A DNA stretch of 36,847 bases, taken from positions 1-36,847 of the forward strand of contig PXRY01000099.1 of NCBI GenBank assembly GCA_003022925.1. The letters are read 5' to 3'. This DNA comes from Halobacteriales archaeon QS_8_65_32. Its GTDB lineage: Archaea > Halobacteriota > Halobacteria > Halobacteriales > Halococcaceae. Numbering within the stretch: position 1 is the stretch's first letter; every line of letters starts with the position of its first letter. The position numbers and the translations under genes are program-made. The notes under the pieces are model-generated. The model searched no databases, was not told the origin of the DNA, and worked only from the letters and a program-made list of their open reading frames with translations. Below, piece after piece: positions 921-32,640 of the stretch.

Positions 921-1033
921 GGCGGTGTTTGATTTGGCGATGAAGACCAACCGAGACCGGTTCGGGTGGGACTGGGAAGGGGGCTTCCAAAACGGGCTCG
1001 GCGGCTTTTTCCCGAAAGCTGCCAAACTAAGCA
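921..1033 (-). repeat. Hairpin-element family, copy 1 (minimal form without hairpins)
   Basis: Read on the minus strand, this copy begins GCAGCTTTCGGG, then AGCCGCCGAGCCCGTTTT, GGAAGCCCCC, and passes directly into CTTCCCAGTCCCACCCGAA and on to AAACACCGCC. The left part matches the left end of copy 5 (29118-29153) and the right part matches the right ends of copies 3 and 5, but the hairpin-rich core is missing. This copy therefore defines both ends. A 70-residue frame reads through it on the plus strand, but I take that as a by-product of the repeat. Confidence 0.75.
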
Positions 1034-8514: not shown

Positions 8515-8705
8515 CAACTGCTGTGGGTGGGACTGAAAGGGGCCCGACCGCTCGGCGAAGGCGGGCGAAGTAAGCACCGTAGGGAGGGAGCAGCGCGACC
8601 GACCGAGGAGCACAGCGAGCCCCCCGAGTCGAGCGCGTCGGGGGCTTTCGAGAACGCCGCGTCGGTCTGATCGACGCACTCTGCTACGCTAAACACTACT
8701 GCCGG
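8515..8705 (-). repeat. Hairpin-element family, copy 2 (core without hairpins)
   Basis: On the minus strand: CGAAAGCCCCCGACGCGCTC, then GGGGGGCTCGCTGTGCTCC, GGTGCTTACTTCGCC, GAGCGGTCGGG and CCCCTTTCAGTCCCACCC. The left motif matches the other copies. The middle segment (GGCTCGCTGYGCTCCTCGG ... GTGCTTACTTCGCC) also occurs in copy 6 at 32506-32557. There are no clear triloop hairpins, so this is a core variant. It fills most of the 350-base gap between the cupin and VOC genes. Confidence 0.72.
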
Positions 8706-19220: not shown

Positions 19221-19703
19221 GAAACAGGACAGCGAGTCGAGGTGAACGGTTCGAAAGCCCCCTCCCGCTCGACCGACCGCGGCTCGTTGCGCGCGTTCGC
19301 TCCCTTCGGTCACTCACATGCTTGTGTCGTCACAGGATCGTGTCGCGATCCTGTTGGCTCACGAGAGTGCTACGAGAGACGCTTCGCGTCTCTCGGCACG
19401 ACAAGAGAGCTCCGCTCTCTTGAACCACTTCGCTCTCGTGAACGCGGTCGGAGCAAAGCTCTTCCCTGCTCTCGCCCGTCTCGCTCCGCTCGCTCGCGAG
19501 AACGCCGCGGCCGGACCGAGCGGGAGGTCGGCTCCGCCGACCGCGGAATCCGTGGTCGTTCGAAAGGCGCGGAGCGCCTTTCGTGATGAACGAAAGACGC
19601 CGGAGGCGTCTTTCGAACCACGGCGAAGCCGCCACGCGGTCGGCCCCTTCCAGTCCCCCCGAAGCGGTTCCCACCGGTCTTTATCCTTTGATTAAACACC
19701 GCC
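19221..19703 (+). repeat. Hairpin-element family, copy 3 (long form, 7 hairpins)
   Basis: Left end ACGGTTCGAAAGCCCCCT (as in copy 4), right end CCCCTTCCAGTCC (19644-) through GGTCTTTATC to AAACACCGCC (19694-19703). The core holds hairpins at 19332-19354 (loop TGTCG), 19373-19395 (TTC), 19402-19422 (TCC), 19526-19542 (TCC), 19561-19583 (GGA), 19591-19615 (GGA) and 19621-19631 (GAA). Stems are 4-11 bp and perfect. All loops except the first are trinucleotides closed by C-G. It occupies the 640-base gap between the ABC exporter and EamA genes. Confidence 0.8.
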
Positions 19704-22248: not shown

Positions 22249-22600
22249 CGAAATAGGGCTGTGAACCGTACCGAACGGTTCGAAAGCCCCCTGCGTTCTC
22301 GTGAGCGAGCGCGGGCGAGCGACCGAGAACGCGGTCGCAGCACAGCTGCTCCCTGCTCTCGTTCGCTCGTTTTACTCGCCTACGAGAACGCTGAGCGGAA
22401 GGTCGGCGAGCCGACCCTCGAAACCAGGTCGGTCGCGGGGGCTTCGGTCCCTTGTGAACGTGGTCGGAACGCGAAGCGTTTGAACGGCGGCGAAGCCGTA
22501 ACGCGTCCGACCCCCTCCGCTTCCACTCGACGCGGTTCGTGGCGGCCTTCGCCGGTCGAACGAGCACCGCTCCGGTGGCTACCGAAAGAGTAACGCGAAC
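22249..22600 (+). repeat. Hairpin-element family, copy 4 (diverged right end)
   Basis: Left end ACGGTTCGAAAGCCCCCTGC matches copy 3. Hairpins: GCGTTCTCG with CGAGAACGC far apart (22293-22332), GGTCGGC-GA-GCCGACC (22401-22416), AACGC-GAA-GCGTT (22468-22480) and CGGC-GAA-GCCG (22488-22498). The right end is degenerate: instead of CCAGTCCCACCC it reads CCTCCGCTTCCACTCGACGCGG. It lies between hisH and the first GT-C gene. Probably an old copy. Confidence 0.65.
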
Positions 22601-29107: not shown

Positions 29108-29469
29108 GTAGCAGCTTTCAGGAGAAGAGCCGCCGAGACCGTTTCGGAAGCCCTCAGACGCTCGACTTGGGGGGTTCGCTGCGCGCGCTCATTCACGCTG
29201 TCCGTTCGCGTGCTTGCGTCGCCCGCCGTCGTCGACCGTGAGGTCGGCTCCGCCGACCTCGGAATCCGTGGTCGTCAGAGACCGAAGGTCTCTCGTGATG
29301 TTGTCAGAACGCGAAGCGTTCTGACTGCGAGCGGGATCGGAGGTCCCGCACTGAACGAAAGACGCCTTCGACGTCTTTCGAACTACGGCTTCGCCGCCAC
29401 GCGGTCGGTCCCTTCCAGTCCCACCCGAAGCGGTTGCTGTCGGTCCTCGTCGTGCAACTAAACACCGCC
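29108..29469 (+). repeat. Hairpin-element family, copy 5 (long form, 6 hairpins)
   Basis: Left end GTAGCAGCTTTCAGGAGAAG, then GCCGCCGAGACCGTTTCGGA and AGCCCTC; right end CCCTTCCAGTCCCACCCGAAG (29410-) to AAACACCGCC (29460-29469). Hairpins lie at 29240-29260 (TCC), 29277-29293 (GAA), 29303-29325 (GAA), 29331-29349 (GGA, one G-T pair), 29356-29380 (TTC, one mismatch) and 29386-29396 (TTC). All are closed by C-G. The right end overlaps the last codons of the helicase gene. Confidence 0.85.
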
Positions 29470-32262
29470 CCGAAAGCGATCGCGGCGATCGTACCGGTCG
29501 CATACGACGCGCTCGTGGAACTCTTTTAGGACGCGGCTCTCGTCTTCGGCGAGAACCACGTCGCTCGCCGCGAGCGTCGCGATACCGAACGCCCGCGGGG
29601 TCGGCGAGGACAGCCGTCGATGTGTCACTGCAATCTCGCCTGTGTCGACGCCTCGCATTACCTCTTCGATCGCCCCGACGTCGAGTTTGTCCTCCAGTAA
29701 CTCACGATGGGTCTCTTCGATTACGGCGAACTCGCTCAGGTCCTCCGCGAAGCCCAACAACATCTCGCTCGATACCTGCTGCTGGCTCGCGGATTTCTCG
29801 TAGCCTTTGTATCGTTTGAGGATCATGAGCGCGCGCGTCGCGTTGATTCGGAAGTACCGCTTGAGCAGATCGGTGCCCCGAAGGCTCGCCCTGAGGTCCG
29901 CGCGAACCTCCGCGGGGTCGATGTCCTCGATGACGCCCTCTAGGTCGAGCTTTCGGTTGAGCGGCATCGAGAGCGAGAAACCGTTGTCGGCAACGGCGAC
30001 CGCGACGTTCGCGCCCGCTGCTTGGGCACAGCGGTACGCGAGCAGGCGCGAGAAACCGTCGTTGAACCGCCGACCGTAGTTCGAGTGGACGTAGTACCGC
30101 CGCTTGTACTCGGCGTGGTCGGTTTCTTCCTCGATTGCAAGCCTCGCCGGCGTGCTCACGCTCTCGGGGCCGGCGTACCTAATCTGCTCGTCGAACATCC
30201 GGGTGAGGGCACGCAAGGCGTCGTCGTCGATCGAAAACTCCCGGAGCCAGCGTCGTACGGCGGGCGGGCCCTCCTCCTCTAAGCGGGCGAGTAACTCCTC
30301 CTGATACGAGAGAATCGCTCGGCCGAGATCGTACGACAGCGGTAGGCGTTCGGCGAACCACGACGGAACGGTCGGCCGCGCGCCGGTCGGATCGACGTAG
30401 ACCTTCGGTCCTCTCCTATATCGGAACTCGTAGCGATCGCCGCCGAGGACGAACACGTCGCCCTTTTCCAAGGTATCGAGGTAGGCCTCGTCGAGCGTGC
30501 CGACCCGCTCGTCCCCGCCGCGGACGAACACCGAACACGAAAAGGAATCGGGGATCGTCCCGATGTTCGTCATGTAGATCACCCGGGCGAGCCGACCGCG
30601 TTTACCGATCAATGGCTGGCCGACGTCGAAGTCGGGGTAGTGGTGCTCGCCATCGGGCGCGTCGTTCGTGTCGCGCCAGATTTTCGCATAGACATTACGA
30701 TCTTCCAAGCCCTCGTAATCGGCCGTGAGATAAGAAAAGAGCAGTTCGAAGTCGGTGTCAGTGTAGTTCCGATACGGGTAGGCCCGCCGGAGGATCGCTC
30801 GTACTTCAGATTCGGGCCGGACGGCGTTGATCGCCATCCCATAGACCTGCTGGGCGGCGACGTCGTGGGCGTTTTCGGGGACGAAGACGCGATCGACGAA
30901 GTTTGCCTCGGCTTTCCGAATCATGACCGCGCACTCGACGAGTTCGTCGCGGTCGAGAACCAGTACTCGGCCCTTGACCGTCTGTCCCAAGCGGTGGCCC
31001 GCCCGGCCGACCCGCTGGAGGAGGCTGGCGACCGATTTCGGCGAGCCGACTTGTATCACTAAGTCGACGTGGGGCATGTCGATCCCGAGTTCTAAGCTCG
31101 TCGAGGTGGTAACCACATCGAGCGTGCCCTCCTTGAGTTTCCCTTCTACCTCCTGGCGGCGTTCTTTCGAGAGGCTGCCGTGGTGACACGCCGACTGCTC
31201 CTCGGAGAAACCGTGGTTCTCGCGAAGCGTCTGGAGCACGCGTTCGGCACCCGACCTGGTGTTGGTGAAGACGAGCGTGTTCGTATGCGACTCGATCAAT
31301 CCGGCTAGCTCGTCGTAAAAACGCCCGTGGACCACCTCGCGGGGCGTGTTGATGAGGTCGGCGGCGGGGCAGGACAGTTCCAAGTCGAGCTCGCGGGCGA
31401 AGCGAGCATCGACGATCTCGTACTCTCGTGGCGGGCCGCCGGGCTCGGCGCGGCCGACGAGGAATTCGGCGATCGTATCGAGCGGTTCGACGGTCGCCGA
31501 ACAGCCGATTCGCGTGGGCGACGTGTTACACATCGCTTCGAGGCGTTCGAGCGAGAGCGCCAAATGCGTGCCGCGCTTGTTGTCGGCGACGCTGTGGATC
31601 TCGTCGACGACGACGTACTCCGTGGTTCTGAGTTTCTCCTTGAACTTCGGGGAGTTGAGCAGGATGGCGAGCGTCTCAGGCGTGGTGTTGAGGATGTGTG
31701 GCGTGACCTCTAACATCCGCTGGCGGTCGGCGCTGCTCGTATCCCCGTGTCGGATAGCATGACGGATCTCGATCCCGTCGTCGACGTTCTCGTCGTCGGC
31801 GTCGGTTCCCTCATTGCTTCCATCGCTGTCGTTCTCGCTCTCGGCGGCGATGTCGGCGATGCCTTCTAAGGGGACGGTGAGATTACGATGGATGTCGTTC
31901 GCGAGCGACTTCAGCGGCGAAATATAGAGACAGTACACCGAGTTGTCGAGGCCCTCCTCGGTGTCGCGTTCGCGCCGATAGAGGTCGTCGATGATCGAGG
32001 CAAAGGCCGAGAGCGTCTTGCCGCTTCCCGTCGGCGCACAGACGAGCGTGTTCGTTCCGTCTTCGATGCGCGGGATCGCGCCGCGCTGTGGTGGGGTGAA
32101 GAAGCCGCCGTTTTCGGGGACGAACGCGGCGAACTGCTTCACCCACCACTCCCTGACCGCCGGTTCGAAGGACGATAGCACGTCTTCGTCGTCGATCTCG
32201 ACGGACGCAGGGTCGAACGAAAGGTCGGTGTCGATCCCTTCGAGCAACTCGCGTCCCGGCAT
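29458..32262 (-). CDS. Lhr-type DEAD/DEAH-box ATP-dependent helicase
   Basis: 934 aa from the ATG at 32262 (an in-frame TTG at 32289 would add nine). Superfamily 2 helicase of the Lhr group, found in archaeal DNA repair and remodelling. Motif I APTGSGKT at 76-83, Ia ISPLKSLANDI, II DEIH at 220-223, III CSATVEP, IV-VI with VFTNTRSGAERVLQTL, VTTSTSLELGIDMPHVDLVIQ and QRVGRAGHR. The Lhr-core winged helix and C-terminal domains follow (PDSFSCSVFVRGG; RYYVHSNYGRRFNDGFSRLLAYR). A ~25-residue acidic insert at 140-165 (ENDSDGSNEGTDADDENV) interrupts the first RecA domain. Its last four codons coincide with the end of repeat copy 5. Confidence 0.93.
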   Translation of the reverse strand: MPGRELLEGIDTDLSFDPASVEIDDEDVLSSFEPAVREWWVKQFAAFVPENGGFFTPPQRGAIPRIEDGTNTLVCAPTGSGKTLSAFASIIDDLYRRERDTEEGLDNSVYCLYISPLKSLANDIHRNLTVPLEGIADIAAESENDSDGSNEGTDADDENVDDGIEIRHAIRHGDTSSADRQRMLEVTPHILNTTPETLAILLNSPKFKEKLRTTEYVVVDEIHSVADNKRGTHLALSLERLEAMCNTSPTRIGCSATVEPLDTIAEFLVGRAEPGGPPREYEIVDARFARELDLELSCPAADLINTPREVVHGRFYDELAGLIESHTNTLVFTNTRSGAERVLQTLRENHGFSEEQSACHHGSLSKERRQEVEGKLKEGTLDVVTTSTSLELGIDMPHVDLVIQVGSPKSVASLLQRVGRAGHRLGQTVKGRVLVLDRDELVECAVMIRKAEANFVDRVFVPENAHDVAAQQVYGMAINAVRPESEVRAILRRAYPYRNYTDTDFELLFSYLTADYEGLEDRNVYAKIWRDTNDAPDGEHHYPDFDVGQPLIGKRGRLARVIYMTNIGTIPDSFSCSVFVRGGDERVGTLDEAYLDTLEKGDVFVLGGDRYEFRYRRGPKVYVDPTGARPTVPSWFAERLPLSYDLGRAILSYQEELLARLEEEGPPAVRRWLREFSIDDDALRALTRMFDEQIRYAGPESVSTPARLAIEEETDHAEYKRRYYVHSNYGRRFNDGFSRLLAYRCAQAAGANVAVAVADNGFSLSMPLNRKLDLEGVIEDIDPAEVRADLRASLRGTDLLKRYFRINATRALMILKRYKGYEKSASQQQVSSEMLLGFAEDLSEFAVIEETHRELLEDKLDVGAIEEVMRGVDTGEIAVTHRRLSSPTPRAFGIATLAASDVVLAEDESRVLKEFHERVVCDRYDRRDRFRGGV

Positions 32263-32329
32263 TGAATTCCCTTCGCCATCCAGCGACAAGGGCGTTCGGA
32301 CGGCGGCAGGGGTCGTGTTCGACTAAGTA

Positions 32330-32640
32330 ATTTGTTGCGGGGAGCCGCTGGAACCGTTTAGGAAGCCTCCGGACGCTCGGCTTCTGCTCACGGGTCGGAG
32401 GCCCGTTCGCATGGTCCGCGGGACTCGGAGCGTCCCGCGTGGTTCGGGAGAACGGAGTTCTCCCGTCATCACGAGAGAGCTTCGCTCTCTCGAACGACTA
32501 CCCGCGGCTCGCTGCGCTCCTCGGCTTCCTTCGGTCGCCTGCGATGCTTACTTCGCCGGGGTTCGTTGAGCGCCCGACCCCTTCCAGTCCCACCCGAACC
32601 GCTCTCCGGCGTAATTTCGTTTGAAATCGGCGGCGACTGA
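32330..32640 (+). repeat. Hairpin-element family, copy 6 (long form with copy-2-like segment)
   Basis: Left end GGGGAGCCGCTGGAACCG, TTTAGGAAGCCTCC. Hairpins at 32390-32406 (GGA, one G-T pair), 32417-32439 (GGA, one mismatch), 32445-32465 (GGA) and 32472-32492 (TTC), all closed by C-G. Then GCGGCTCGCTGCGCTCCTCG and ATGCTTACTTCGCCG, shared with copy 2. Right end CCCCTTCCAGTCCCACCC (32578-) with GAACCG. It lacks AAACACCGCC. It sits between the helicase start and the methyltransferase. Confidence 0.8.

Follow-up and report, generated by a model that had tools for sequence, protein, structure and literature searches.

The window, i.e. the whole stretch of 36,847 nucleotides analysed here, is one contig of a haloarchaeal genome of 3.28 Mb (127 contigs, 78% complete). 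The nearest named relatives of the source genome are the Halobacteriales archaea QS_3_64_16, QH_8_64_26 and QH_6_64_20. Alignment of the copies of an intergenic element gave two conserved ends, left GACCGTTTCGGAAGCCCCC and right CGGCCCCTTCCAGTCCCACCCG, and models of these ends matched six copies in the window. The copies and their main features are as follows.

944–994, minus strand: copy 1 (end models and hairpin list); minimal, left and right core ends nearly fused, without long hairpins
8515–8655, minus strand: copy 2 (end models); short, with terminal repeats that are imperfect and, outside them, a duplication matching at 6 of 8 bases
about 19244–19703, plus strand: copy 3, read as a MITE from the left core end to the right terminal repeat; contains the region first described
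19373–19395, unstranded: hairpin of copy 3, perfect 10 bp, TTC loop
19402–19422, unstranded: hairpin of copy 3, perfect 9 bp, TCC loop; L113:6182 has the same stem and flanks with a GGA loop
19526–19542, unstranded: hairpin of copy 3, perfect 7 bp, TCC loop
19561–19583, unstranded: hairpin of copy 3, perfect 10 bp, GGA loop; L105 and L114 have other stems in the same flanks
19591–19615, unstranded: hairpin of copy 3, perfect 11 bp, GGA loop; flipped to TCC in L102:4696
19630–19680, plus strand: right conserved core end of copy 3 (CGCCACGCGGTCGGCCCCTTCCAGTCCCCCCG...), from the end model
19690–19703: right terminal repeat of copy 3, GATTAAACACCGCC, read in the sequence
22273–22548, plus strand: copy 4 (end models and hairpin list); diverged, with few GRA loops
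29137–29469, plus strand: copy 5, read as a MITE; hairpins at 29240–29260, 29277–29293 and 29303–29325
about 29456–29469: right terminal repeat of copy 5, AACTAAACACCGCC
32353–32611, plus strand: copy 6; hairpins at 32445–32465 (GGA) and 32472–32492 (TTC)

Copy 5 is missing at the orthologous site of the relative G001, and copy 6 is missing at the orthologous sites of the relatives G002 and G003. For an open reading frame of an Lhr-type helicase (29458–32289, minus strand), the stop codon apparently falls within the terminal repeat on the right of copy 5; therefore, the insertion may provide the 3′ end of that gene.

Number and placement of the elements

Genome statistics were obtained from 622 kb, with an order-3 Markov control; this sample was taken mostly around matches, and the element density in it is therefore overestimated. 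In this sample, the end models identified 84 right ends, and predicted coding DNA contained none of them. The 55 complete elements span 104–741 bp between the end models, and the lengths bounded by terminal repeats are 194–811 bp. Corrected from an unbiased motif count of 155, the genome holds about 300 intergenic copies. A role as terminators was rejected because the right ends are distributed among divergent, tandem and convergent gene pairs approximately as intergenic DNA is in general.

Triloop hairpins

When all of the perfect hairpins in the window were listed, the long triloop hairpins clustered at approximately 19330–19615, 29240–29380 and 32417–32492, and their loops were TTC, TCC, GGA and GAA. 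The preliminary description had assigned such a loop to 18 of 20 hairpins. With perfect stems of at least 5 bp, 11 of the 21 hairpins in copies 3–6 have a GAA, GGA, TTC or TCC triloop, and four further ones have a C-GGA-G or C-TTC-G centre within a 7-nt loop, with a mismatch beside the loop; the higher count is reached only if stems of 4 bp or with loop-adjacent mismatches are included. The exception named at 19332–19354 (TGTCG) is present in copy 3, and the hairpins at 22263–22281, 22319–22338 and 19489–19500 have to be added to the exceptions. The rule itself was confirmed, and its signal at the genome scale is stronger than had been claimed. As folded single strands, copies 3 and 5 greatly exceed their shuffled counterparts in stability (z = −8.2 and −4.2, respectively).

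The comparison of loop frequencies with a control, proposed as a check on the rule, was performed on the 622 kb: perfect hairpins with stems of at least 9 bp include 172 triloops, compared with 13 in the Markov control, while all other loop lengths account for 77 hairpins compared with 43. GAA, GGA or their complements occupy 135 of the 172 triloops (GAA/TTC, 71; GGA/TCC, 64; one each in the control). These hairpins are not copies of a single stem, since the inner 7-mers comprise 22 distinct sequences for GAA/TTC and 14 for GGA/TCC. The closing pair, which had been described as always C-G, is so in nearly all cases: a C closes approximately 95% of the GAA and 99% of the GGA hairpins whose stems have 7 bp or more. 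GCA and GTA loops are rare in the genome; therefore, the original reading of the rule as C-GNA-G holds in the narrower form C-GRA-G. In the orientation of the element, 58 loops read GNA and 42 read TNC. This nearly equal use of the two strands argues against an RNA and against a fixed single-stranded intermediate.

Most of the signal belongs to the elements. The complete elements make up 2.4% of the sampled DNA, and 126 of the 135 hairpins of the GAA/GGA type are no more than 450 bp away from an element end. Outside the elements, GNA loops are also in excess, but to a smaller degree: 13 were observed in the same genome (approximately 2 expected), and 27 were observed across 69 other haloarchaeal loci (approximately 5 expected). 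No such preference was found in a small sample of E. coli (150 kb).

Terminal repeats and target duplications

The elements end in degenerate terminal repeats, GGYRGTGTTYAG, with 8-bp target duplications. The inverted repeats lie outside the core ends and are clearest in genome G155, where the left one is GGTAGTGTTCAGATAAG and the right one is its complement; in most genomes outside this genus and G155 they are hard to see. A generic inverted-repeat search of the flanks missed most of them because they are degenerate. At fixed distances in the source genome, 43 of 84 right ends match the 14-nt repeat with at most three mismatches, compared with 4 of 84 random windows; for the left ends, the counts are 32 of 69 and 1 of 69. 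Duplications that match at 7–8 of 8 bases, such as ggcgaggt (L111) and gtcactcg (L114), flank 9 of the 29 elements having both ends, whereas shuffling gave a mean of 0.37 and a maximum of 3 in 2000 shuffles.

A review of the IS6 family describes 8-bp duplications, GG tips and a TGTT motif, and contains two MITEs only (PMC7986276). The terminal inverted repeats found here have GG tips and the TGTT motif, and the elements have no transposase gene or are too short for one. The search for an IS6 transposase in the source genome, which is 78% complete, found no intact copy. In the sister genome G001, an intact IS6 transposase of 211 aa (NF033587, E = 1.1e-56) is located between matching ends, as in an autonomous transposon of the same kind. 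From the repeats, the 8-bp duplications and the transposase within like ends, the elements are best read as IS6-type MITEs.

A conserved core in Halobacteria

The core of the element consists of GAAAGCCC, a covarying 13-bp stem and CCCCTTTCAGTCCCACCC. The right-box motif is present in 161 of 294 Halobacteria genomes, while the reversed motif, used as a control, has a single match across all 294. In other genera, the core reads GAAAGCCC, an outer stem of approximately 13 bp, an interior of typically 40–130 nt, the second arm and CCCCTTTCAGTCCC(A/G)CCC. The outer stem has 61 distinct arms and is 96% Watson-Crick paired, compared with 52% after shuffling of the columns. Position 9 is T-A in 65 of 75 stems and is nearly invariant amid an otherwise freely covarying stem. 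The mismatches as written include 27 A.C and 12 G.T, and the wobble type amounts to approximately 3% of the pairs.

Rfam gave no match for the element or its core at either threshold, only a neighbouring tRNA, and the motif text retrieved no relevant record in the literature searched, with subscription papers outside reach. No match was found in the viral contigs searched. The core is new here, in that it has neither an Rfam entry nor a description in the literature searched. It may be an original part of the MITE or may have been captured by it.

Two cores often stand head to head with their right boxes 16–26 nt apart (L206, L239, L174, L173, L210 and others), and at L210 IS6-like repeats are located at both outer ends, a layout that suggests a larger palindromic MITE. 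On the opposite strand of the core ends (e.g. 19630–19680 and 19244–19263), the consensus is GGGTGGGACTGGAAGGGG ... GGGGGC with four G-runs. The outer stem would join these runs, and from the letters a G-quadruplex is conceivable. A tentative possibility is that the core, carried by the MITEs, is an undescribed structured element of Halobacteria and that some factor of the host or the transposon recognises it when folded, as DNA or as RNA. If true, recognition of the core by such a factor would account for both the success of the MITEs and the loop rule.

Loop inversion and stem change between copies

Hairpins were compared in pairs that share their stem and agree at 27 or more of the 30 bases of each flank. 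Their loops are identical in 25 pairs, exactly inverted in 13 and different by one substitution in 9; three of the others combine inversion with one substitution, and one has three substitutions. Exact inversion therefore makes up 13 of the 26 loop differences at 90% flank identity, although the pairs are mutually dependent and these are not counts of events. To invert a loop by point mutation, three specific changes are required. Between copy 6 and L094:1365/1392, two adjacent hairpins are both flipped while their order and flanks are the same. At homologous sites with differing stems, the loops are still GNA.

Inversions are also found elsewhere. Genome G155 has a TCC loop in one copy and a GGA loop in another (L247 and L259). 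In an orthologous, apparently protein-coding stretch of Halorubrum, the hairpin CGCGAGCG-NNN-CGCTCGCG has the loop CGT in one species (L071) and ACG in L054, L057, L060, L063, L072 and L078; this is an orthologous inversion among isolate genomes. Since flips are seen in G155 and in Halorubrum isolates, faulty assembly of this MAG does not explain them.

Compensatory stem changes between copies, which the preliminary description had proposed to look for, were found: two-sided compensated arm changes number 30, compared with approximately 4 expected (computed by hand from the per-arm change rate). However, 130 one-sided, pair-breaking changes were counted at homologous hairpins. The stems thus undergo both decay and repair, without strict conservation; either the repair is incomplete or the copies are decaying. 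The statement that the stems vary freely is somewhat overstated in view of these uncompensated changes. Published work describes inverted loops combined with homogenised arms as the signature of template switching in replication (PMC8794818, PMC8604942).

Discussion

The use of either strand for the loops, the stem covariation and the inversions in place support the proposal that the rule acts on folded DNA. On balance, we think it probable that the elements are IS6-type MITEs whose hairpins fold in vivo, that template switching repairs the arms and flips the loops, and that stable loops are favoured. An IS6-type DDE transposase would work on double-stranded DNA at the terminal repeats and would leave the 8-bp duplications. 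The MITEs would carry the core (two conserved boxes and a covarying stem) and, in this genome, extra hairpins, which would fold during replication, as the pattern of changes suggests. The polymerase may then switch template to the opposite arm and copy one arm over the other. Such copying would keep the stems nearly perfect while their sequence drifts, and the loop would often be recopied in reverse, from GAA to TTC and from GGA to TCC. As a mutational mechanism, template switching explains the flips and the arm homogenisation without selection. Functional selection is not needed for the loop rule, even if it may also act.

The preference for particular loops can be related to published chemistry. 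GNA loops closed by G-C pairs are reported to be extraordinarily stable in DNA (PMC4686876), and the link to the d(GCGAAGC) mini-hairpin drawn in the preliminary description is apt in this respect. Because C-GNA-G is exceptionally stable, such hairpins would fold more readily, and these would be the ones maintained and recopied. Nearest-neighbour DNA energies have one value for all 64 triloops and are blind to loop identity; therefore, it is the literature that carries the stability step. GCA and GTA loops are reportedly stable as well and are rare here, so that stability is insufficient to explain the choice of GAA and GGA, and descent also matters. Common descent with an A/G transition could account for this choice.

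The fixed loops had been taken to hint that the element passes through single-stranded DNA or that a protein recognises its structure. Selection of this kind, through recognition of folded C-GNA-G DNA by a protein or by the machinery of transposition, as with HUH transposases and attC recombination, seems to us rather unlikely. It would explain why the loop is fixed while the stems differ, and the strongly covarying outer stem of the core, its nearly invariant T-A pair at position 9 and the invariant flanking boxes are all in its favour. However, the IS6-type ends, the 8-bp duplications and the transposase of G001 favour ordinary DDE transposition over a single-stranded stage, and no Y1 (HUH) transposase was found in the 78%-complete source genome or two relatives. 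Strand-specific recognition of single-stranded DNA would not give equal strand use and frequent flips, and many of the stem changes are uncompensated. The part of the original interpretation that stands is that the DNA appears to fold; for the rest, template switching in IS6-type MITEs fits better than a single-stranded transposition stage.

It is improbable that the element is a structured RNA, such as a regulator or a transposon guide, whose hairpins are selected in the transcript. The boxes are conserved throughout the class, the stem covaries, and the excess of A.C over G.T mismatches (27 to 12) would read as G.U on the opposite strand; however, wobble-type mismatches are very few in the outer stem, the loops occur in both senses, Rfam has no match, and the orientation relative to genes is not fixed. 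That the rule is a mere copying of a few ancestral hairpins in an amplified repeat, with folding irrelevant, is very improbable: one repeat family does hold most of these hairpins and many copies share a stem, but there are 36 distinct inner stems among the GAA/GGA hairpins of at least 9 bp, homologous sites have differing stems with GNA loops, loops are inverted in place, and the preference extends beyond the elements (13 compared with approximately 2) and to 69 other haloarchaeal loci (27 compared with approximately 5).

Hundreds of natural hairpins are thus available in a single genome for scoring loop inversions against changes in the stems and flanks. Two questions thereby become directly testable, namely the formation of DNA hairpins in living cells and whether template switching or selection keeps stems paired. 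The GNA mini-hairpin, a test-tube curiosity, is tied to a genome-wide pattern, and a conserved haloarchaeal element without a record in Rfam or the literature searched is brought to light.

Comparison with known systems

The elements resemble the IS6 MITEs (IS6/IS26 type, archaeal clade; PMC7986276) in their GG-tipped TGTT repeats, their 8-bp duplications, their gene-less length of a few hundred bp and the presence, in a sister species, of an autonomous IS6 counterpart with the same ends. In contrast to the two MITEs in that review, they occur in hundreds of copies, have an interior built from numerous hairpins of a fixed loop class, and possess a core common to many genera.

The PATEs of Haloquadratum (PMC3119063) are likewise abundant haloarchaeal elements with palindromes and without a transposase. 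However, the relatives of PATEs are IS605-type transposons, and PATEs have neither terminal repeats nor target duplications; because both features were found here, a PATE or IS605-type derivative was ruled out. The REP, BIME and REPIN sequences with RAYT (PMC2817692, PMC3116915) are also abundant intergenic palindromes, but they are tied to Y1 tyrosine transposases, whereas the stems here are not conserved and a search for PF01797 found none in the source genome (G000), G001 or G002, all of which are incomplete. Mobilisation of the HUH/REP type was rejected because no Y1 transposase was detected in the 78%-complete source genome.

The hairpins share the loop and the closing pair with the d(GCGNAGC) mini-hairpins (PMC4686876 and work cited there), which are known from synthetic DNA, while the rule described here is found in natural genomic hairpins. 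They share arm homogenisation and clean loop inversion at nearly perfect inverted repeats with the template-switch hairpins (PMC8794818). Those cases come from inference on RNA genes, and pure loop inversions form a small fraction of their patterns; in the present elements, the hairpins are non-coding DNA of one loop class, and inversion is the commonest loop change.
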